From Radicibacter daui (lineage in GTDB: Bacteria > Pseudomonadota > Alphaproteobacteria > Radicibacterales > Radicibacteraceae): a stretch of DNA of 64,000 nt. Position numbers and translations under genes: made by a program. A model generated the notes under the pieces. It was not told the origin of the DNA and made no database searches. It was given only the letters and a program-made list of their open reading frames with translations. Shown piece after piece: positions 51,676 to 64,000 of this stretch. The number at the start of each line of letters is the position of its first letter. The stretch's first letter is position 1. The stretch spans positions 3,120,501-3,184,500 of the forward strand of contig CP131056.1 in NCBI GenBank assembly GCA_030657355.1. The letters run 5' to 3'.

Positions 51676-53112
51676 TCAGAGCGCGAATTCAGTCACAAAC
51701 TTGGTGCGCATGAAGGCTTCGAGGCCTTCGATGCCGCTTTCAGAGCCGAAGCCGCTTTCATTGACGCCGCCAAACGGCGTTTCCGGGGTGGAAACGGCCA
51801 TGTGGTTGACACCAACGAGGCCGGCATCGAGCGCTGCTTCCGTTTTCGCTGCCAGCGACACGCTGCGGGTGAAGCAGAAGGAGGCAAGACCATAGGGCAG
51901 CGAGTTCGCCCGCTCGATCACCTCGTCGAACTCCTTGAAGCTCAGCAGCGGGGCGATCGGGCCGAACGGCTCTTCGCTCAGGATGCGGGCATTGGCCGGA
52001 ACCTGGGTCAGCACGGTCGGCTGGAAGAAGAAACCGGCACCGCTGGCACGCTTGCCGCCGAGAGCAACCTTTGCACCCTTGGAGACGGCATCCTCGACAA
52101 AGCCTTCCATTACCGCAAGGCGGCGCTCGGCGATCATCGGGCCCATCTGGGTGCCGGCCTCAAGGCCGTTGCCGACGACAAGCTTCGAGGCCAGTTCGAC
52201 AAAACCGGCAGCAAAACGCTCATAGAGGCTTTCATGGATGAAGAAGCGGGTCGGCGAGGTGCAGACCTGTCCGGCATTGCGGAACTTGGCGGCGACGAGC
52301 GTCTTTACCGCGTGCTCAAGGTCGGCATCTTCATGCACGATGACCGGCGCGTGGCCGCCAAGTTCCATGGTGCTGGTCTTGAGTGTTTCGGCAGCGCGCT
52401 TCTGCAAGAGCTTGCCGACGGCGGTGGAGCCGGTGAGCGTGATCTTCCGGAAGACCGGCGAGGCCACCAGAGTGGAGGACACATGGTCCGGCACACCGAA
52501 AACAACGTTCAGCACGCCATCCGGCAGGCCGGCTTCCTGGAAGCAGCGGGCCATCGCCACGGCCGTGCCCGGGGTCTCTTCAGCCGGCTTGACGACGATG
52601 GAGCAGCCAGCCCCGAGCGCGCCGGAGATCTTGCGGATGACATTGCTGGCCGGGAAGTTCCAGGCCGCGAAAGCGACGACCGGACCCACCGGCTCGCGCA
52701 GCGACATCTGGCGCACATTCGGCATACGGGCCGGGATGATACGGCCATAAACGCGCTTGCCTTCTTCCGCATACCAGCGCGTGGCATCGGCGGCAAACTG
52801 CACTTCCGGCACCGCCTCGCCCAGCGGCTTGCCGTTTTCCTGCGTCAGCAAGCGACCGATCGCTTCCTTGCGTGCCTCGATAAGGGCGGCGGCCCGCATC
52901 AGGATCTCGTAGCGCTGCTGGGCCGTCCTGTTCTTCCACACCGCAAAGCCACGCTTTGCGGCTGCTGTCGCCTCGGCCAGATCCTGATCGGTGCTGAGCG
53001 GCACCTTTCCAAGCACTTCGCCGGTGGCCGGATTGACCAGATCACGGGTCGCCCCGTTGCTGGCCTGACGCCACTTGCCATCAATCAGCAGCTCGATCTT
53101 TTCTTCATACAT
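51676..53112 (-). CDS. NAD(P)-dependent aldehyde dehydrogenase, semialdehyde type
   Basis: A 478-residue aldehyde dehydrogenase of the succinate-semialdehyde/2-oxoglutarate-semialdehyde group. It has WNFPASNVIRK (151-161), KPAEETPGTA (Lys175), FTGS-type TLTGSTAVGK, catalytic Glu250 in TMELGGHAP and catalytic Cys284 in NAGQVCTSPTRF. In hydroxyproline breakdown the final step oxidises 2-oxoglutarate semialdehyde to 2-oxoglutarate, and this enzyme fits that role, though substrate choice is inferred from context. It is the last gene of the operon and follows the racemase-family gene by 33 bases. Confidence 0.88.
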   Translation of the reverse strand: MYEEKIELLIDGKWRQASNGATRDLVNPATGEVLGKVPLSTDQDLAEATAAAKRGFAVWKNRTAQQRYEILMRAAALIEARKEAIGRLLTQENGKPLGEAVPEVQFAADATRWYAEEGKRVYGRIIPARMPNVRQMSLREPVGPVVAFAAWNFPASNVIRKISGALGAGCSIVVKPAEETPGTAVAMARCFQEAGLPDGVLNVVFGVPDHVSSTLVASPVFRKITLTGSTAVGKLLQKRAAETLKTSTMELGGHAPVIVHEDADLEHAVKTLVAAKFRNAGQVCTSPTRFFIHESLYERFAAGFVELASKLVVGNGLEAGTQMGPMIAERRLAVMEGFVEDAVSKGAKVALGGKRASGAGFFFQPTVLTQVPANARILSEEPFGPIAPLLSFKEFDEVIERANSLPYGLASFCFTRSVSLAAKTEAALDAGLVGVNHMAVSTPETPFGGVNESGFGSESGIEGLEAFMRTKFVTEFAL

Positions 53113-53145: not shown

Positions 53146-54153
53146 TCACCGGCACAGGAAGCCGAGGGGAAGCGGGTCGTTTTTGGTGCGGATGAAGGTG
53201 TGAAGGCCGGTAATATGGGCGAGGCCTTCTATCAGCGGGCGCCAGCAACTCTCCCCGGACGGCCCGCTCGCAGCTTCGGGCAGCGCCGAAGCCGAGAACT
53301 CGACATCGAGAATGTTCTGCGCGCGGATCCGCTCCCCCGGAGCAAGCGCCCCGGCGTCCAGCAACTGGGCAAGCCGTGCGGACGTGCCGGTGCCGCAGGG
53401 TGAGCGGTCAAACTTGTTGGGGGCCAGCACCACCAGTTGCCGGCTCACCAGTACGCCCTCTTCCCGCGTGGTGCGGTAAAAGAGAACGCTGTGAACCGGA
53501 TGGCTTGCGCCGGCAATGTTCCCGGCGGTGATGCGGGCATTGATCTCCGCCTTGATGGCAGAGCCGGCGGCCATCGCCTGCTGCACGCCCGCCGGCGACA
53601 GGTCGATCCCGGCATCCGCAGCGTCAACCAGCGCATACCAGTTTCCGCCCCAGACAATGTCGCAGGCCCCGCGCCCTGCCAGCGCCGCTACCGGAACGCC
53701 CCAGGCCACCACAAAGGCCGGGACGTTCTGGAAGCTCACCGACGCTAGCAGCCCGTCCTGATAGCGCATGGCCACAGTGACGATGCCGGCCGGCACTTCC
53801 AGCGTGAAGGCGGCCTTGCCTTGCTCATCCGGGCCGATAAGGCCCAGATGGTCGAGCGTGGCGGCAAGGCCGATCGTCGCGTGGCCGCACATCGGCAGGT
53901 AGTTGTAGCTGCCGAGGAAGAAAGCTCCGTAATCGGCAACGGCGCTGTCGGTCACAACCGCGCCTACCATCGCCGAATGGCCCCGCGGCTCGTGCAGCAG
54001 GAAGGTCCGCAGCTCATCGCAGTTTGCTTCGAACCAGTCGCATTTTTCCGCTGCCGTGCGCCCCTTGAGCGGCGGCAGCCCTCCCGTGATGACGCGGGTG
54101 GGGTGCCCTGCCGTATGGCTGTCTACCGTCGTGATGACACGCTGGCTGGACAT
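53146..54153 (-). CDS. Proline racemase family, likely 4-hydroxyproline 2-epimerase
   Basis: A 335-residue enzyme with both catalytic cysteines: Cys89 in PMCGHATIG and Cys253 in DRSPCGTGTSAR. It also has IDSHTAGHPTR-type TVDSHTAGHPTRVITGG and LHEPRGHSAMVGAVV. Two cysteines indicate a racemase or epimerase rather than the trans-3-hydroxy-L-proline dehydratase, which has Thr in the second place. Context favours inversion at C2 of 4-hydroxyproline. The ATG at 54153 has GAGGTG upstream and lies 7 bases after the GMC gene. The longer frame is a shadow of that gene. Confidence 0.88.
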   Translation of the reverse strand: MSSQRVITTVDSHTAGHPTRVITGGLPPLKGRTAAEKCDWFEANCDELRTFLLHEPRGHSAMVGAVVTDSAVADYGAFFLGSYNYLPMCGHATIGLAATLDHLGLIGPDEQGKAAFTLEVPAGIVTVAMRYQDGLLASVSFQNVPAFVVAWGVPVAALAGRGACDIVWGGNWYALVDAADAGIDLSPAGVQQAMAAGSAIKAEINARITAGNIAGASHPVHSVLFYRTTREEGVLVSRQLVVLAPNKFDRSPCGTGTSARLAQLLDAGALAPGERIRAQNILDVEFSASALPEAASGPSGESCWRPLIEGLAHITGLHTFIRTKNDPLPLGFLCR

Positions 54154-54160
54154 CGGCACC

Positions 54161-55870
54161 TCACGCCCCCGCCTTGATGGCGTCGGCGACCTTTTCACCT
54201 GCCATGATGGTGCTGAGCATGGTGTTGCCGCTGATGACGGACGGCATGATGGAGGCATCCACCACCCGCAGCCCTTCAACGCCGATCACCTTGCCCTGGG
54301 GATCGACCACCGCATTACGGTCAGAGGCATCGCCCATGCGGCAAGTACCGCTGGCGTGCCAGCTCCCGCAGGTGTTGTCGATGATCCAGGAGCGCAGCAG
54401 GTTGGGCGAATTCTGCAGCCCGCGCAGATCCACATCCGGCACGATGACTTTCTCGATCATCATCCGGCGTGACAGCGGGTTTGCCCCCATCACCATGGCG
54501 GCGATCAGCGTCAGGAACCAATTGGTCTTGCTGACGGCCCCCAGCTTGCGCACACGCTCGGAGAAAGTCGCCGGGAAGACATCCTTGATGACCGAAGCCA
54601 TCGCGGGGTCGGCCACGATCTTGAACAGGCGCTGCATGCCATCCTCAAGGCGCTTCAGGTCGCGCTCGTCGGAAAGCTGCTGGAAGTTGATCTCCGGCCC
54701 GACCTCATAATCGGGGCTGGCGAGCTGGACGTAGCCTGTGGAATACGGCCGGTTGACGCACACCAGGATGGAGGCGAGACGCCGGCCAAGCGGATGCCAG
54801 GCTGCCCGGTTGGAGGGCAGCACGAACATGTCGCCCGGCGTCGTATCCGGCAGGCCGGAGCTGTAGCGGTAGCCCATCTGGATATGCCGGCGCATGGTCG
54901 GCGGCAGGCGGCTTTCCCTGGGCAGGTAAGCGGCAAGCGCCACCATCGGGTGGTCCTGCAGATTGCGCCCGACACCGGGGCGGTCGGCCCGCACCTCGAT
55001 GCCCATCTTGCGCAGATGCTCCGCCGGTCCGATGCCGGAGCGCAGCAGCACGGCAGGGGATTGCAGGGCGCCGGCCGAGACGATGACCTCGCCGGCCATC
55101 AAAACCTGTTCGCCAGCCGGGCTGGTGATGCGCACGCCGGTTGCGCGCTTACCCTCGAACAGGATCTCCTTCGCTTCGCTGCGATAATAAATCCTGAGGT
55201 TCGGCCGCTTGCGCACGTCGCGGGTCAGGTAGGCCTTGGCCGCCGAAACACGCTTGCCGTCCACATTGTTGATGGTCATCGGGAAATAACCGTCGTCGGT
55301 GACGCCGTTATGATCCTCGATGTTGAGCACCCCCTGCTTTTCCAGCACCCGGGCGGTGGCCTGGGCAAAAGGCGACCAGTCCTTTTTCTTGATGCGCCGC
55401 AGCGGCATGGGGCCGCTGTCGCCGTGCACGGGACTGTCCGGATAATCCAGATCCGTCTCGAGCTTGCGGAAATAGGGCAGCACGCCGTCCCAGTCCCAGC
55501 CCTTTGCGCCCTGCTCCGCCCAGTGCTGGTAGTCCCAGGGCAAACCCCGGAAAGCGAACTGGCCGTTGATGGAGGTGCCGCCCCCCATCACCTTCGCCTG
55601 CTCATAGCGGCGCGGCGGGGTATCCGGCTTTTTGGGCGTATCGAGATGAACCTGGATCTTCTGCCAGTGATAGGACCGGTTGAAGTAGGCGACAATCGGA
55701 TAGGCATCCAGAATGTCGGCAGGCTCCGCTCCCGGCGGTGTATCGGGACCGGCCTCGATGAGGGCGACCCGAAAACGTGACTCTTCCGACAACCGGGCGG
55801 CCAGCACGCTGCCGGCGGCACCGCCACCGACAACGATGTAGTCGAATCTTTCTGTCATTTCATTCGCCAT
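54161..55870 (-). CDS. GMC family FAD oxidoreductase
   Basis: A 569-residue flavoenzyme of the glucose-methanol-choline family. The FAD site is [21 protein letters not shown] near residue 10. GMC signature 1 lies in [17 protein letters not shown] and signature 2 in [18 protein letters not shown]. The active-site His is in [12 protein letters not shown], with a C-terminal [14 protein letters not shown]. It oxidises an alcohol; the substrate is unknown. ATG codons at 55870 and 55858 are both possible, the first overlapping the upstream aldehyde dehydrogenase gene by 11 bases. The pairing with that gene suggests an alcohol-aldehyde-acid sequence. Confidence 0.9.
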
Positions 55871-57335
55871 AATTAAGGACGACGGTCTTGGAGCGCAGGA
55901 AAGTCTCCAGGCCACTGCGTCCCATTTCCTTGCCGAACCCGGAGCCGTTAAAGCCGCCCTGCGGGGTGGCATAGTCCGGCTGCCGGCCATGGGCGTTGAC
56001 CCAGACAGTGCCGGCTTCCAGCCGGTCGACGAGGCTCATGGCGCGCTGCAGGTTGTCGGTGTAGAGGCTGGCGGCAAGCGCGTAGGTCGGATGGTTCGCC
56101 AGGGCGATACCCTCCTCCTCGTCGTCATAGCCATAGACGCTCATGATCGGACCGAAGAACTCGCCGGTGTAACCGACGGAGCTGTCCGGCACGCCCGACA
56201 GGATGGTCGGCTGGTAATAGGCGCCGCCATTCATCTCCGGCACCCGGCCGCCTCCAAGCAGCACCTCGGCGCCGTCACGGCGCGTCTCGGCCAGCATGGC
56301 GTCGATGCGGGCGGCCTGCTTTTCGCTGATGATCGGCGGCAGCGTATTGCCGGCAATCCAGGTCGGCCCTGCCTTGCGGCCGTTGGCAATCACAGTGACC
56401 TTTTCCAGGAGCGGCTCAAGCAGCTCGCGCGGGACGATCAGCCGGGTGCCTGCCGTGCAGACCTGACCGGAATTGGCCAGGAAACCGGCAGCGATATTGC
56501 CGGCGACCCTGTCAAGGTTCCGGACATCGCGCAGCACGAGCTGCGGGGTTTTGCCACCCAGCTCCAGCGTCACCGGCTTGGTGCCGTTTTCCGCGGCGGC
56601 CGCCATGATACGGGCGCCGGTGGCGGAGGAACCGGTGAAGGTAACCTTGCGCACCAGCGGGTGGCGCACCAGTTCGGCACCGGTTGCCCCGGCTCCGAGC
56701 ACGATGTTGAAGAGCCCCTTCGGCAATCCCGCCTCGATCGCCAGCTCTGCGACGAGCAGCGACGAATAAGGCGTAAGTTCTGAAGGTTTCAGCACCACCG
56801 CATTGCCGACGGCCAGCGGCGCCGCCGACTTCCAGATGCCGTGGATAACGGGGAAGTTGAACGGGGTGATCGCACCGACGACACCGTAGGGCTCCGGCTT
56901 GGCATAGCTGCTGAGACCGGCCTTGCCGGCAAAGAGCTGGCCTTCCACCTTGTCGGCCCACTGCGCGAAATAGCGCACGGCTCCAGTGGCCCGCACCATG
57001 TCGCGTTCCATCAGGTCCGCGATGGGACGGGAGGAGGCAATCGCCTCCGCCCGGGCAATCCGCTCGCGATTGGCATCGATGAGGTCCGCCCAGCGCAGCA
57101 GCACTGCCGCGCGGTCCAGCGGATTGGCATCGGCCCAGCCACTGGTGCGGAAGGCGTGGTCGGCAGACTCTACCGCCCGGGACACGGTGGCCGCATCCGC
57201 CACCGGAATGGGCAGCGCCTCCAGCCCATCCGAGGGACGAAACACCTTGAGCGTTTCGCCGGCATGAACCCGCTCGCCGCCGATCAGATGCGCGGCAAAC
57301 AGCTCAACGCTGTCGGGATTGAAATCATAGGACAA
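55860..57335 (-). CDS. Aldehyde dehydrogenase family protein
   Basis: A 491-residue aldehyde dehydrogenase: [15 protein letters not shown] (157-171), [13 protein letters not shown] (Lys183), [11 protein letters not shown], Glu258 in TLELGGKTP and Cys293 in [13 protein letters not shown], with [15 protein letters not shown] near the C terminus. It would oxidise an aldehyde with NAD(P). It overlaps the GMC gene downstream and starts 22 bases after the second racemase-family gene. Two aldehyde dehydrogenases in one operon suggest two different aldehyde steps. Confidence 0.9.
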
Positions 57336-57357: not shown

Positions 57358-58365
57358 TCAAACCCCGGTCAGGCGGAAGCCCGAGGGGAACGGATCGTTG
57401 GGATCGAGGAAGAAATTGAACGTGCCGGTCAGATAGGCGGAGCCGGTCACCGTGCAGGTGATCGCCGGTAATTCGCCCACAGTGGTCTCGCCGGTCACCT
57501 TGCCGGTAAAGACGGTGTCGAGGATGCCGGCATGGCGGAAGCTTTCGCCCGGCTTCAGCTCGCCGCGCCCGTGCAGCATCGCCATGCGCGAGGCAGTACC
57601 GGTGCCGCAGGGGGAGCGGTCGATAACCGTTGGCGGGCAGATGACGGCATTCTTGCCATCGACCGTGACCCCGTCGCCGCCCTCGATGATCTCGATCTGG
57701 TAGATCTCGTTCACATGGGCGAGCGTCGGATGCTGGACCGGATGATCCTTGAGACCGGCCCGCAGCTCAGCAGCGGCGGAGACGATATCCCAGGCGCGGT
57801 CGGGCGTGATGGTCAGACCGAGATCGGCTGCCTTGACGATCAGATAGAAATCGCCGCCGAAGGCGATGTCCGCGCGCACCTTGCCGAAGCTCTTGGTCTC
57901 GACAAGGATGTCCTTGCGGTAAAGGAAGCTCGCCGGCATCTCGAGGGTAACGGAAACGGCCCGGCCATTCTCAACCTTGACCCGGGCCGGCACCACGCCC
58001 GCCGGGGTGTCGAGACGCACCAGCGTCTCGCCCTCCACCGCATCGATGTAACCGGCCTCCACCGCAATGGTGGCAACCGCCATCGCACAGTGGCCGCACA
58101 TCGGCGGGTAGGTATCGGGCTCCAGGATGAGCATGCCGATATCGGCATCGGGCGAGCAGGCCTCGGTCAACACAGCCGCCGGCATGTTGAAGCTGCCGCG
58201 CGGCTCGAACAGGACGAGCTGGCGCAGCCAGTCGCGGGACATGAGGTCCGCGCGCTTCTCGACCATGGTCTTGCCGCGGATCGGGCCGAAGCCCGAAGTG
58301 ATGAGGCGCAGCGGGCAACCGGCGGTATGGGAGTCGATGCCCTGGATAATTCGCGTGCTACGCAT
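57358..58365 (-). CDS. Proline racemase family protein, second copy
   Basis: A 335-residue paralogue of the enzyme at 53146-54153. Both cysteines are present: Cys90 in PMCGHCAMA and Cys253 in DRSPCGTGTASR. GIDSHTAGCPLRLITSG opens the protein, and FEPRGSFNMPAAVL follows. The two copies differ widely in sequence, so they are not a recent duplication and probably act on different imino acids, for example 3- and 4-hydroxyproline. It follows the DapA-family gene by 6 bases. Confidence 0.87.
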   Translation of the reverse strand: MRSTRIIQGIDSHTAGCPLRLITSGFGPIRGKTMVEKRADLMSRDWLRQLVLFEPRGSFNMPAAVLTEACSPDADIGMLILEPDTYPPMCGHCAMAVATIAVEAGYIDAVEGETLVRLDTPAGVVPARVKVENGRAVSVTLEMPASFLYRKDILVETKSFGKVRADIAFGGDFYLIVKAADLGLTITPDRAWDIVSAAAELRAGLKDHPVQHPTLAHVNEIYQIEIIEGGDGVTVDGKNAVICPPTVIDRSPCGTGTASRMAMLHGRGELKPGESFRHAGILDTVFTGKVTGETTVGELPAITCTVTGSAYLTGTFNFFLDPNDPFPSGFRLTGV

Positions 58366-58371
58366 GTTCTG

Positions 58372-59280
58372 TCACCGCACCGAGGCAATGGTTTCGCGGA
58401 CATGAGCGTCCGCCAAGATGGAACGGACGGTCGCCTGCTGGGCGTCCGAGAACGGCAACAGCGGCTCGCGCGGAATACCGACCGGCTGGTCAAGTGCGTT
58501 CATTGCCGCCTTGATGCCGGCATAGAAGCTGCCGGTCTTGAAGCAGCGGTAGATGGCGAAGAGCGCAGGCTCCAGCATATCGGCCGCAGCGCTGTTCCCA
58601 TCACGGCAGGCATCGAAATAACGGCGCACGAGTTTGCCGGAGAGCTGGTGGGCCATCGCCACCACGCCCACGCAGCCGACCGGCAGCGCCGAGCGGATCA
58701 TGGTTTCGTAGCCGACAAAAACAGCCAGCTTGTCCTTCACTTTCGCGCACAGCTCGGTCACCTGCTGGATGTCGGCAGAGCTATCCTTGATGGCGACGAC
58801 ATTGGGGAGATCGGCCAGTTTGGCGACGAAGTCCGGGGTCAGGTTGACGCCGATCCGGGCCGGGCTGTTGTAGAGCATGACCGGCAGTTCGCTGGCTTCG
58901 GCAACGACGCGGTAGAAGCGCTCGGTCTCTCGCAGGTCCGGCTTGGCGTAGATCGGCGGCAGGGCAAGAATACCGTCACATCCGGTTTCCTTGGCCGCCT
59001 TGATCAGGCGGAGCACCACCGCGGTGTGGAGGTCGGACACACCGGCCAGTACCGGCACCCGGCCAGCGGCAGCCTTGACGGTCGCCGTGAAGAGCTCGAT
59101 GCGCTCCTCGACCGTCATGGCATAGAACTCGCCGGTGCTGCCACAGACGATCAGGCCATCTGCGCCATTGGCGATATTGGCCTCGACCAGTTCGGCATAG
59201 CGGGGAAAGTCGATCCCGCCTTCAGGCAAAAAGGGGGTAACCAGGACACTGTGAATGCCCTTCCAGTCAGTCTTAGACAT
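58372..59280 (-). CDS. DapA-fold lyase, likely pyrroline-4-hydroxy-2-carboxylate deaminase
   Basis: A 302-residue class I aldolase-fold enzyme of the dihydrodipicolinate synthase family. The Schiff-base Lys165 is in VVAIKDSSAD, Tyr137 is in MLYNSPARIG, and the GSTGEFYAMT loop (48-57) binds the carboxylate. In hydroxyproline breakdown a DapA-family deaminase turns 1-pyrroline-4-hydroxy-2-carboxylate into 2-oxoglutarate semialdehyde; the neighbouring racemase-family and semialdehyde dehydrogenase genes make this assignment likely. It follows the ABC ATPase by 19 bases. Confidence 0.88.
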   Translation of the reverse strand: MSKTDWKGIHSVLVTPFLPEGGIDFPRYAELVEANIANGADGLIVCGSTGEFYAMTVEERIELFTATVKAAAGRVPVLAGVSDLHTAVVLRLIKAAKETGCDGILALPPIYAKPDLRETERFYRVVAEASELPVMLYNSPARIGVNLTPDFVAKLADLPNVVAIKDSSADIQQVTELCAKVKDKLAVFVGYETMIRSALPVGCVGVVAMAHQLSGKLVRRYFDACRDGNSAAADMLEPALFAIYRCFKTGSFYAGIKAAMNALDQPVGIPREPLLPFSDAQQATVRSILADAHVRETIASVR

Positions 59281-59299: not shown

Positions 59300-60127
59300 C
59301 TAGTTATTCTGCAACAGCGGACGCATCAGCTCGGCTGTTGCATGGAAGCGGTTGACGAATGACTGAACACGGTCACTCGTCGGGTGGAGGAGCACATCGG
59401 CTGGCGGACCGTCTGCATCGATGCAGCCCTGATCGAGAAAGACGACGCGACTTGCGACCTCGAGGGCAAAGCCAAGCTCATGGGTAACGACGATCATCGT
59501 CATCCCCTCCTTGGCCAGCGACATCATCGTCTCGAGCACTTCGCCGACCAGTTCGGGATCCAGCGCCGAGGTCGGCTCGTCGAACAGCATGACCTGCGGC
59601 CGCATATTGAGCGCACGGGCGATGGAAACACGCTGCTTCTGCCCACCTGACAGCTTGTCAGGCCGGCGGTCGGCGAAACTGGCCATGCCAACCTTGCCGA
59701 GATAGTCCATGGCCCGGTCCCGATTGGTGGCCGGATTTTCCTTCAGGACGGTGCGCGGGCCTTCCATCACATTCTCCAGCACCGACATGTGCGGGAAGAG
59801 ATTGAAATGCTGGAACACCATGCCGACGCGGCTGCGCAGGCCGTTGACCTGACGCTGGGAGACTGCGGCACCACGCCCGGCGCCGGCAGGCGTGTCGAAG
59901 ATGGCGCTACCGCCGATTTCGATCCGCCCCTTGTCCGGTATTTCCAGCAGGTTGATGCAACGCAGCAGCGTGGTTTTGCCGGAGCCGCTGGAACCCAGGA
60001 GTGCCACCACCTCGCCCTCATGCACATCAAGATCGATGTTCTTGAGGACCTGATGCTGGCCGTAGCTCTTGGACAGGCCACGGATGGAGACGAGCGGAGC
60101 CGTCCCGGATGTCTGGGAGGAGGTCAT
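59300..60127 (-). CDS. Polar amino acid ABC transporter ATP-binding protein
   Basis: A 275-residue GlnQ-type ATPase: Walker [10 protein letters not shown] (45-53), signature LSGGQKQR, Walker [14 protein letters not shown] and switch His in VVTHELGFA. It powers uptake through the permease encoded just upstream. The two genes overlap by one base. An insertion around residues 80-92 ([13 protein letters not shown]) is longer than in GlnQ but common in hydroxyproline/histidine-type subfamilies. Confidence 0.92.
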
Positions 60128-60771
60128 CAGTTATGGCCCTCCAGCTTGCGGGCGATGTAGTTCGACGGAATGAGAATGAGCAGGAAGACCACGCCGATGG
60201 CCGTGTAGATTTCCATCGGCCGGTAGGTGAAGGACGAGATGTAACCGGCCTGGTAGAGCAGATCGGGCACCGTGATGACCGACAGCAGCGTAGTGTTTTT
60301 CATCTGGATGATGGTCTGGCCGGCAAGCGGCGGGATCATGCGGCGGAAAGCCTGCGGCAGGATGATCCGGCGCATGGCCTGCGCCCCGGACATGCCCAGC
60401 GCGCGGGCCGCATCGCTCTGGCCCCGCTCAAGCGACTGGATGCCCGCGCGCAGGATCTCGGCATAGTAGGCGGCACCATAAAGACTGAGCGCCATGATGC
60501 CGGCGGCCTGCTTGGAGATGTTGATGCCGAAGAAGATCGGCAGCGCGTAATAGCTCCACAGCAGCCACACGAGCAGCGGCACATTGCGGAAAAACTCGAC
60601 GAATAGGCGGCCGGCCCAGTTGAAAAACCTGAAGCCGCAAATCTGCGCGACCGCAATGACAAGACCGATGACCAGACCGAGCACCGTCGTCAGGACGGTG
60701 TAATAGATAGTGATTCCAAGCCCTTTCACTATCAGATCGGTATTCTGGAAGATAACTGACCAATCAAACAC
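60127..60771 (-). CDS. Polar amino acid ABC transporter permease
   Basis: A 214-residue HisM/GlnP-type inner-membrane permease with five hydrophobic segments and the EAA loop [25 protein letters not shown], which docks onto the ATPase. Only one permease gene is present, so it probably works as a homodimer. It lies 79 bases after the binding-protein gene. Confidence 0.92.
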
Positions 60772-60850: not shown

Positions 60851-61696
60851 TCAGAAGCTGAATTCGGGCGGCAGGATCGACAGATCGATGCCGTGATCCT
60901 CAAAGGCCTTCTGGAGCTTGCCTTGGGCGAGGCCGAGTGCGCGCTGCTGGTTGACCCAGTTGGTCAGCCAGTTCTCGTAGCCCTCGTTGCCCTCTTCGCG
61001 GGCAACACCGATGGTCGCCGGGTTGCGCAGCATCGGGCTCGGCAGGATGATCTCCCCATTGATCTGCTTGGCGACCTGCACGGCGTCGAAGATGGCAAGG
61101 ACCATCGCGTCACCACGGCCGGCCTGCATTTCCATCAGGCCAAGCGGACGCTCTTCCACCACAACCTTCTGGGCCTTGGGCGCCAGGGCGTCGGCGACAA
61201 CCTGCATCGTGCCGCCCTTCTGGACGATCAGACGCACGGACGGATCATTGAGCTCGGCCCAGGTCTTCTTCTCGAAGCCTTTCTTCGTCACGATCGCCCA
61301 GGCGTCGGTGAAGAGCGGAACATTCAGATAATCAACCACAAGGCCGCGCTGCGGATTGGGGTTGAGCCCAAAGGCGATGTCGATCTTGTGAGCCTGGAAA
61401 TCGGCGGCGAGATTGCCCCAGGTGGTCTCCACTGGCACGACCTTGACGCCGAGCAGGCCGGCAATGTCATGCGCCCAGTCCATGTAGAAACCGCCCCACT
61501 CACCGCTGTCGCGGTTACGGATATAGCCGGGCTCCTCGCCCACCATCACCGGCACGCGCAGTTCGCCGCTCTTGCGGATGCGGTCAAGCACAAGATTAGG
61601 GTCTGCAGCATGGGCCGGCGTTACCGCCGAGGCCAGACACAGCATGAACAGCGCCGCGGCGGCACTGAACAGTCGCTTCAAGAATTTGAGTTCCAT
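60851..61696 (-). CDS. Periplasmic amino acid-binding protein of ABC transporter
   Basis: A 281-residue solute-binding protein of family 3. The signal peptide is MELKFLKRLFSAAAALFMLC with a cleavage site after THAHA-like TPAHA near residue 30. The mature part has LRVPVMVGEEPGYIRN, GFYMDWAHDIAGLLGVKVV and FDVAFGLN-like IDIAFGLNPNPQRG, typical of the fold. The ATG at 61696 has AGGTGG 6 bases upstream; the GTG at 61705 is an alternative. It would bind the imino acid used by this operon, and it follows the regulator gene by 33 bases. Confidence 0.9.
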   Translation of the reverse strand: MELKFLKRLFSAAAALFMLCLASAVTPAHAADPNLVLDRIRKSGELRVPVMVGEEPGYIRNRDSGEWGGFYMDWAHDIAGLLGVKVVPVETTWGNLAADFQAHKIDIAFGLNPNPQRGLVVDYLNVPLFTDAWAIVTKKGFEKKTWAELNDPSVRLIVQKGGTMQVVADALAPKAQKVVVEERPLGLMEMQAGRGDAMVLAIFDAVQVAKQINGEIILPSPMLRNPATIGVAREEGNEGYENWLTNWVNQQRALGLAQGKLQKAFEDHGIDLSILPPEFSF

Positions 61697-61729
61697 CCGA
61701 TCCACCTTCTGTACATTCTGTTTTTTGAG

Positions 61730-63625
61730 TTACCCAAGAAAACCGCGCCTTAAGGGGTCGTCGGGCTCAAGGATGAGTGTCGAGATCCCGTTGAGATGGG
61801 CGCGTCCCGAAATTTTCGGGATATATGCAGGGCGCCCGTCCGGGCCCTCTGCAATTCCGGTGATCCTGCCTTGCAGGTGGCCGCCGAAAATGCTCTCGGC
61901 TTCCATGACTTCACCTTCCTTGAGGCGCCCCTGCGCCATCAGGAGGCTCATGCGGGCGGCAACGCCGCCCACGCCCGGCGAGCGGTCATAACGCTGACGG
62001 TCAATAGCCAGGAACAGCCGCTCGCGACCGGCGGCGATGCTCTGGCAAAAGAGAACTGAATCGAGGCCGGCCTCGAGGGCCGGCTGCACCGCGGCCAGCG
62101 CCTTGCGGATTTGCTGGCCGGCAGCCAGCATCTGCTCGAGATTGTCCGACGTAACCTCAAGCCCGAGATCTGAGGCCTCGACCATGGCATGGATGTTGGA
62201 GCCGCAGGACACCTGAACCGCCAGTGCCTTGCCCTTGACCGTCACCATCAGATCGCGGTGCGTCACGCTAACCGCCGGCAGGCAGACCTGGATGAGATCT
62301 CCCTTGCCGCCCAGATCGACCTCGACGATGCCGCCCGGCATCTCTACGGAGAAACGCTGGCGTTCCTTGAGACGGCCCAGCGCTTCCAGCGCCTTGGCAT
62401 ATCCCAGCACGGCATGGCCGCAAAAACGCGGATAGCCGTAGGAGGTAATGAAGAAGGCACCGAAGTCCGCCTTGTCCGACGGCACCGGCACCAGGCCGAA
62501 GGACCCCACGTGACCACGCGGCTCCTGCAGGAGCATGGGGCGCAGATGGTCGTAGCGACGCTCGAACGCCTGGGCCTTTTCGGCAACGGTTTCGCCCTCA
62601 ATTCCGCTCAGCGGCTCGATGAGGATGCGGGTGGGGTGCCCGGCCGTATGCGTCTCCAGCACACGGTAGGTCTCGGAGTTGCCCGGCAGTTCGACATTAA
62701 GCCCCCCCTCCCCCAGTCCAGTACCATGGGAGACGCCCAGATCGAGCCGGCGGCCGCGTTTTTCAAAATGCATGGATCCCAGACGTTCAACGTCGGTGTT
62801 CATCCACAGCACGACCACATTTCCGCCGGAGAGGTTGCGCCAGCGATGACCGATGCGGCTGTTGAAGTAGGCACTGTCGCCCGGGCGCAGGACGGCAGCT
62901 TCGCGGCCGGAGAGTGTTATCTCCAGCTCGCCTTCCAGCACATAGATCAGCTCTTCGCCGTCATGGGCATAAAAGCCGTCGCTTTCCCGGCCGGCTTCGA
63001 TGGTCCACACCTCGGCATCCATCAGCCGCTCGGCAACGGTCAGCTGCTCGATGGTCACGCCGGGGCCGAACGTGCTGACGATGCGCCCTTCGCCCTTGCG
63101 CACGATGGGCATGTCCTGCCGGCTGGTACCACCCAGTATCTCGGACAGGGTCCGGTGGAAGACTTCGGCGATGGCGCTCATGCGCGCCGGCGACAGAAAG
63201 GCCGCACCACGCTCGAACATACTGAGGTGCGACACACCGATCTCGGTACGCTCCGACAGCTCGCGCAGCGACATGCCGGCTTCCTGGCGAAGATTGCGGA
63301 CAGTCTCGCCGATTTTCTCGAACTCGACCTTGCGGCGCTCCGGTTCGGGAACCGCCGCCGGGACATCGTCTGCAACCGGCACCTCATCGAGCGCCCGGCG
63401 AATACCGGAAAGGTTCATGCCCGACACCCGGCGCAGTTGCTCGATCTGCCGGATGCGATCCAGATCGCTGGCGGCAAAGGAGCGGTGGCCGCTGGGCGAC
63501 TTGTAGGGCTCGATCAGGCCGAAACTTTCCCACGAACGCAGGGTCGATACCGAAACCCCGGTCACCTTGGCGGCATGACCGATGGAATAAGGCTTCCTGC
63601 TGTTCGTTTGATCGCTCAAGGTCAC
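61730..63625 (-). CDS. MerR-XRE-cupin regulator fused to a degenerate proline racemase domain
   Basis: A 631-residue protein in one uninterrupted frame. Residues 12-80 are a MerR-type HTH (YSIGHAAKVTGVSVSTLRSW). Residues 103-163 are an XRE HTH (NLRQEAGMSLRELSERTEIG). Residues 200-277 are a cupin (GEELIYVLEGELEITLSG; LRPGDSAYF). Residues 320-630 are a proline-racemase fold with ETHTAGHPTRI, LQEPRGHVGSFG and RFCGHAVLGYA (Cys402). The second catalytic Cys motif DRSPCGTG reads DRSPGVGG (548-554), so two-base racemisation is impossible. It probably senses a hydroxyproline-like ligand and controls the downstream operon. The start is GTG at 63625. Confidence 0.9.
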   Translation of the reverse strand: MTLSDQTNSRKPYSIGHAAKVTGVSVSTLRSWESFGLIEPYKSPSGHRSFAASDLDRIRQIEQLRRVSGMNLSGIRRALDEVPVADDVPAAVPEPERRKVEFEKIGETVRNLRQEAGMSLRELSERTEIGVSHLSMFERGAAFLSPARMSAIAEVFHRTLSEILGGTSRQDMPIVRKGEGRIVSTFGPGVTIEQLTVAERLMDAEVWTIEAGRESDGFYAHDGEELIYVLEGELEITLSGREAAVLRPGDSAYFNSRIGHRWRNLSGGNVVVLWMNTDVERLGSMHFEKRGRRLDLGVSHGTGLGEGGLNVELPGNSETYRVLETHTAGHPTRILIEPLSGIEGETVAEKAQAFERRYDHLRPMLLQEPRGHVGSFGLVPVPSDKADFGAFFITSYGYPRFCGHAVLGYAKALEALGRLKERQRFSVEMPGGIVEVDLGGKGDLIQVCLPAVSVTHRDLMVTVKGKALAVQVSCGSNIHAMVEASDLGLEVTSDNLEQMLAAGQQIRKALAAVQPALEAGLDSVLFCQSIAAGRERLFLAIDRQRYDRSPGVGGVAARMSLLMAQGRLKEGEVMEAESIFGGHLQGRITGIAEGPDGRPAYIPKISGRAHLNGISTLILEPDDPLRRGFLG

Positions 63626-64000
63626 CGTCCGAATGAATGTAGGTTTTTTGAACTCTATTGATCGTATGTAGATATTTTGAACGAGTCAATCGTCACAAAG
63701 CCGTCAGATAAGTCTCTGAACTCACTGCCGGAGCCGGTGCGGGTAGCAAAAATACCGGCAATGTCACACGCCGAAATTCGCCAAACGACACGACCGGGAA
63801 ATGAGACCCGAGCAAGCTCTGGAATTGAGGGTTTTTGCGGATTTCATGCGAACCGCGACACGCGGGAAGGAAGACCCTCACGCTGGACCTGCACACTCTT
63901 TTTTCCGGAGTCGGCACAGCTTTCTGCCGCGGGTACCGCAAAGCCGCGTCTGGGAAATTCCCGGAAGCTAGACGGGAACTGGGATAGCCGTACCGGCTGC
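63626..64000. other. Upstream region of the fusion regulator
   Basis: The first 60 bases hold the direct repeats. The remaining 310 bases to the window edge contain only short frames without ribosome sites or recognisable domains, and I treat them as non-coding. Confidence 0.5.
63637..63682 (-). promoter_or_regulatory. Pair of 17-bp direct repeats upstream of the fusion regulator
   Basis: ATGTAGGTTTTTTGAAC (63637-63653) and ATGTAGATATTTTGAAC (63666-63682) match at 15 of 17 positions and lie 29 bases apart, about three helical turns. They stand 12 to 57 bases upstream of the GTG, where operator and promoter should be. A partial copy, GTTTTTTGA (61720-61728), lies in the gap before the binding-protein gene. 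Confidence 0.65.

Follow-up and report, generated by a model that had tools for sequence, protein, structure and literature searches.

Regulators of the MocR/PdxR type, which join a GntR HTH to an aminotransferase fold, are one-component regulators of amino-acid or cofactor metabolism. They resemble the protein described here in that an enzyme fold provides the effector domain, but their HTH and their enzyme fold are both unrelated to its own. BzdR provides the published precedent: here an enzyme domain became the effector domain by losing its activity, and the bifunctional intermediate of this transition is a constructed chimera (PMC3602430). BzdR shares with the present protein an XRE-type DNA-binding part, an enzyme-derived domain, which is the putative effector domain in the present case, and the control, predicted in the present case, of a catabolic pathway, but its enzyme fold is shikimate-kinase-like, and it has neither a MerR nor a cupin domain. 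A Pfam scan of the present protein found no shikimate-kinase-like domain, and the NCBIfam benzoate regulator model matches it only at aa 95–176, that is, in the XRE region.

The XRE-cupin regulators characterised in Pseudomonas inhibit metabolic genes next to their own and bind in core promoters (PMC7901475). ErfA, PsdR, and PauR have the same succession of an XRE HTH and a cupin, but lack both a preceding MerR domain and a racemase domain at the end, and their operators are palindromic (PMC7901475). These regulators control genes in their neighbourhood; the candidate operator described below lies, within the whole genome, only at the promoter of the regulator gene itself. Two proteins from Ensifer and Shinella (L048 and L087) share the first three domains and their order, with about 38% identity to the present protein, but end after the cupin. 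The enzymes of the proline racemase superfamily (ProR, 4HypE, and T3LHypD; PF05544), in turn, have the full-length fold and the substrate-loop motifs in common with its last domain, in which, by contrast, the second catalytic cysteine is a glycine and the fold is fused to DNA-binding domains.

The locus lies in a window of 64,000 nucleotides from Radicibacter daui (contig CP131056.1, positions 3,120,501 to 3,184,500), to which all the coordinates given here refer, and all the features are on the minus strand. The open reading frame of the regulator (61730..63625) has a GTG start and 631 codons with no internal stop, and encodes a protein of 631 aa with a MerR_1 HTH (aa 13–81, 63383..63589; Pfam E 3e-18), an XRE HTH (HTH_3, aa 109–163, 63137..63301; E 1e-11), a Cupin_2 domain (aa 206–275, 62801..63010; E 2e-16), and a Pro_racemase domain (aa 322–629, 61739..62662; E 2e-59), each Pfam match exceeding its curated cut-off. 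The first HTH passes the cut-offs of both the MerR_1 and MerR models, and HTH_3 and Cupin_2 follow one another in the XRE-cupin order. The racemase domain scores 201.9 bits, where the cut-off is 27, and covers positions 1–324 of the 325 in the PF05544 profile, and its sequence matches solved proline racemases, hydroxyproline epimerases, and dehydratases (6j7c, E 4e-45). The AlphaFold2 model has a mean pLDDT of 70.8, with values of mostly 80–95 across the racemase region and low values in the linkers, and in a Foldseek search with this model, the racemase-superfamily structures in ranks 1–38 gave TM-scores of 0.75–0.89 (by target length). The sequence-only reading had described a single intact frame that joins two DNA-binding domains, a cupin, and a full-length racemase fold, and this description is borne out. 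It knew of no described regulator with a racemase-fold sensor and a double HTH; in the open-access full-text literature, no racemase-fold case was found.

Including the window, 14 genomes encode the four-domain protein in one frame, with 48–67% identity. The full-length homologues come from six Ancylobacter/Xanthobacteraceae genomes and from seven further genomes found by a search of the order of Ancylobacter, which covered 397 genomes of a larger group (two of its nine matches repeated earlier genomes). A class-level search of 385 genomes, with up to three candidates scored in each, returned stand-alone racemases and no fusion besides that of the window; searches within the order and the genus of the window genome recovered only the window protein itself, and those within the families of genomes G474 and G476 yielded no new fusions. 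Because the sampling of genomes is limited, the spread of the fusion is a lower bound. The long frames around the racemases of L026, L027, and L033 were rejected as fusions, being chance open frames with no second domain.

All 14 fusions head the same type of operon, and the gap between the regulator and the transporter genes is short across the homologues, mostly 24 to about 90 nt. In the window it is 24 nt, on the same strand, and the regulator is followed in the Pfam annotation by the genes of an ABC transporter, that is, a family 3 substrate-binding protein (60851..61705), a permease (60127..60771), and an ATPase (59300..60127), and then by those of a DHDPS-family lyase/deaminase (58372..59280), a first racemase-family enzyme (57358..58365), and an aldehyde dehydrogenase (55860..57335). 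A choline-dehydrogenase-like GMC oxidoreductase (54161..55870, start estimated), a second racemase-family enzyme (53146..54153, start estimated), and a second, SSADH-like aldehyde dehydrogenase (51676..53112) complete the series on the same strand. Both racemase-family enzymes carry MCGH and DRSPCGTG, so the two active-looking enzymes that the sequence-only reading had placed behind the regulator do retain the Cys-Cys motifs; the second is the closest protein in its own genome to the racemase domain of the regulator (37%). The combination of DHDPS-family, aldehyde dehydrogenase, and racemase genes recalls hydroxyproline catabolism, but the GMC oxidoreductase occupies the place of the D-amino-acid oxidase in hydroxyproline operons, and the scores of both racemase-family enzymes fall short of all the equivalog cut-offs for enzymes of proline and hydroxyproline. 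The window genome has two more racemase-family genes outside the operon, one of the Cys-Thr (dehydratase) type (L003) and one that groups with MCGHGTI/DRSPCGTG proteins (L001). The operons of G474 and G476 diverge at the end, and that of G476 lacks the second racemase gene.

Upstream of all 14 genes, 64–74 nt before the start codon, stands the element TTGAC-N3-TTCAA-N3-ATC, many core columns of which are close to 2 bits, with values of mostly 0.0–0.5 bits farther upstream. The sole sigma-70 promoter predicted in this region of the window is TTGACT-17-TACGAT (63661..63689). It contains, between the -35 and -10 boxes, a first candidate operator of 19 bp, GTTCAAAATATCTACATAC (63664..63682), and is followed just downstream by a second, GTTCAAAAAACCTACATTC (63635..63653). 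The first of these belongs to the element that is conserved upstream of all the homologues. With up to three mismatches, only these two sites match in the 5.06-Mb genome, over which a reversed control pattern gave no match at all, and shuffled sequences gave no match to the repeat element. This points to a regulator dedicated to one operon. The candidate operators of the window are direct repeats; in Ancylobacter, the CTACAT half is present in an inverted copy as well.

Given this, it is fairly probable that the protein is a local autorepressor of its own catabolic operon, in which the racemase domain has turned into a ligand sensor. A MerR-XRE-cupin regulator would have been fused to a racemase of the kind present in similar operons, and the protein would most likely bind the two GTTCAAAAnAnCTACATnC repeats at its own promoter, where it would block RNA polymerase and so repress the operon. 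The racemase domain would most likely bind a cyclic amino acid, either the substrate of the operon or an intermediate, and this ligand, possibly acting together with the cupin, would lift the repression. The DNA binding, the sign of the regulation, and the sensing of a ligand are all deduced here from the sequence. The Pseudomonas XRE-cupin regulators, being local inhibitors of metabolic genes, speak for this reading, and their palindromic operators, as opposed to the direct repeats of the window, count as evidence against it.

In classical MerR promoters, the spacer is 19–20 nt long, and 17 nt is the usual length. The spacer predicted here is of 17 nt, not 19–20 nt. Together with the position of one site inside the promoter and of the other immediately behind it, this makes repression more likely than activation. 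The MerR-type N-terminal domain, together with the location of the first operator between -35 and -10, would also suit a regulator of the opposite sign, which would activate the operon in the MerR manner, but this is rather unlikely in view of the spacer length and of the second operator copy, just downstream of the promoter, in a position typical of repressors.

The role of the racemase domain may also be read in other ways. Sensing might fall to the cupin alone, as in the ordinary XRE-cupin regulators, with the racemase domain merely aiding dimerisation or stability. MerR-XRE-cupin proteins that lack the racemase domain do exist, and conservation is higher in the cupin, with 71% identity to Ancylobacter against 48% in the racemase domain, and with His221, Glu225, and His260 invariant across the 14 homologues; the faster evolution of the racemase domain was counted against its role as a sensor. 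This arrangement is nevertheless unlikely, since the racemase domain has its invariant positions mainly in the substrate loops, which a scaffold would not need. In the 12 domains of the glycine type, 20 of the 21 residues of the substrate-binding motifs (THTxGHPT, EPRGH, Phe376, CGH, and DRSP, picked from knowledge of the family) are invariant, against 70 of 292 elsewhere; as the motifs were preselected and the sequences are all kin, the p-value of this difference serves as a rough guide. This is the pattern that would be expected of a binding domain freed from the need for turnover. The pairwise dN/dS values of the glycine-type racemase domain, which are simple NG86 estimates and include a pair (the window and L059) with dS >1, are 0.06–0.27, usually somewhat above those of the other domains, and the altered domain is under purifying selection.

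The two-base pair of the racemases and epimerases, made up of residues in MCGH and DRSPCGTG, is incomplete in the regulator. Cys402, the first catalytic cysteine, is kept in FCGHA (62420..62422), and the second is replaced by Gly551 (61973..61975) in DRSPGVGG, where the enzymes have DRSPCGTG; both residues are found where the sequence-only reading had put them. The carboxylate loop CGTG is also altered in the glycine-type domains, to GVGG, GVAG, or GVTG. The second cysteine is therefore gone, as that reading had stated in calling the domain "catalytically dead", while deadness itself goes beyond this observation: a loss of catalysis is presumed from the replacement, and one-base activity would be possible. 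The C-terminal domain might thus still be an enzyme with a single acid/base cysteine, a dehydratase or other eliminase, which would make the protein a bifunctional trigger enzyme. Cys402 and the His and Asp that grip the substrate nitrogen are invariant, and the Cys-Thr members of the family are single-Cys trans-3-hydroxy-L-proline dehydratases (PMC4113996, PMC4364671). Such an activity is distinctly unlikely, however, as the glycine offers no side chain at the second position, a type that is absent from the lists in these two studies, the carboxylate loop has changed as well, and the operon already encodes two Cys-Cys members of the family. The fused domains of the Ancylobacter type (L006–L011 and L063) have a new cysteine pair, CGDC or CGGC, at the GGNxY motif of the enzymes, a pair that is absent from both the window protein and the enzymes.

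An artefact of sequencing or annotation that joined two genes has a negligible probability and was rejected: the halves are separate proteins outside the fused clade, but 14 genomes keep one open frame, and both of its halves have dN/dS values clearly lower than 1. Relatives with two separate proteins, which the sequence-only reading had named as evidence against itself, do not occur inside the clade, where all 14 members are single-frame fusions, and the halves are seen separately only outside it, as an origin by fusion predicts.

A tree built from 78 racemase domains unites all 14 fused ones in a single clade (support 100/99). Its nearest neighbours there are stand-alone Cys-Cys racemases from Shinella, Microvirga, and G337 (97/87), although long branches make this join less sure. 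The second cysteine has become glycine in 12 of the fused domains, and those of G474 and G476 are Cys-Cys (MCAH or MCGH, plus DRSPCGTG) and sister to the glycine type (100/100, branch 0.49). As this Cys-Cys pair lies within the fused clade, parsimony places the fusion before the loss of the second cysteine, an order that the earlier reader had missed. The trees of the N-terminal and racemase halves are largely compatible, with lower support in the former, as expected if both halves descended together, and the upstream element, being common to the Cys-Cys and glycine proteins, is older than the loss. A stand-alone racemase of the fused subtype was not found in G476, so the fused domain may still do enzymatic work there. 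In the fused domain of G474 (L064), MCAH replaces MCGH, which may be where decay has begun.

There is perhaps an even chance that these proteins form a natural series, in which the Cys-Cys fusions of G474 and G476 are trigger enzymes, active as racemases and as regulators of their own operon, and the 12 glycine-type relatives, the window protein among them, have given up turnover but keep the binding of substrate as a signal input at the same operator. The view of the sequence-only reading that an enzyme has turned into a sensor gains strength from the relatives whose catalytic pair is intact and from the conserved promoter and operator, with the sensing itself still conjectural, and the enzyme seems to have been caught in the process.

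The likely parts of the fusion can be found outside the clade. The MerR-XRE-cupin proteins of Ensifer and Shinella adjoin genes for a GABA transaminase or class-III aminotransferase and a semialdehyde dehydrogenase, from which their own genes (L048:7986-8798 and L087:7995-8810) are divergent, and they look like regulators of GABA catabolism. In Mesorhizobium, Rhizobium, and Microvirga, SBP-permease-ATPase-DHDPS operons include stand-alone Cys-Cys racemases akin to the fused domain, and the fusion probably joined a regulator of the former kind to a racemase from operons of this sort. No split ancestor, in which a stand-alone racemase gene would directly follow a MerR-XRE-cupin gene, was found in Shinella, Microvirga, or G337; the upstream gene is a GntR gene in Shinella and a transporter gene in Microvirga, and a BLAST search found no MerR-XRE-cupin gene in G337. 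In Shinella (L046:7168-8996), the stand-alone racemase gene overlaps that of a GntR/FCD regulator by 4 bp at the head of a similar operon, which is again a pairing of a regulator with a racemase, here unfused and with an unrelated regulator.

The evolution of transcription factors from enzymes has usually been argued from its end products, and the bifunctional step of BzdR had to be built, whereas for the racemase type, fusions that keep both catalytic residues occur in nature. Living relatives appear to show both states within the same architecture, operon, and promoter, and the order of events, from fusion to the loss of one catalytic residue, is thus directly testable. The racemase fold would be added to the enzyme-derived sensors, and may offer a way toward the compound on which this operon, with its two racemase-family enzymes, acts.
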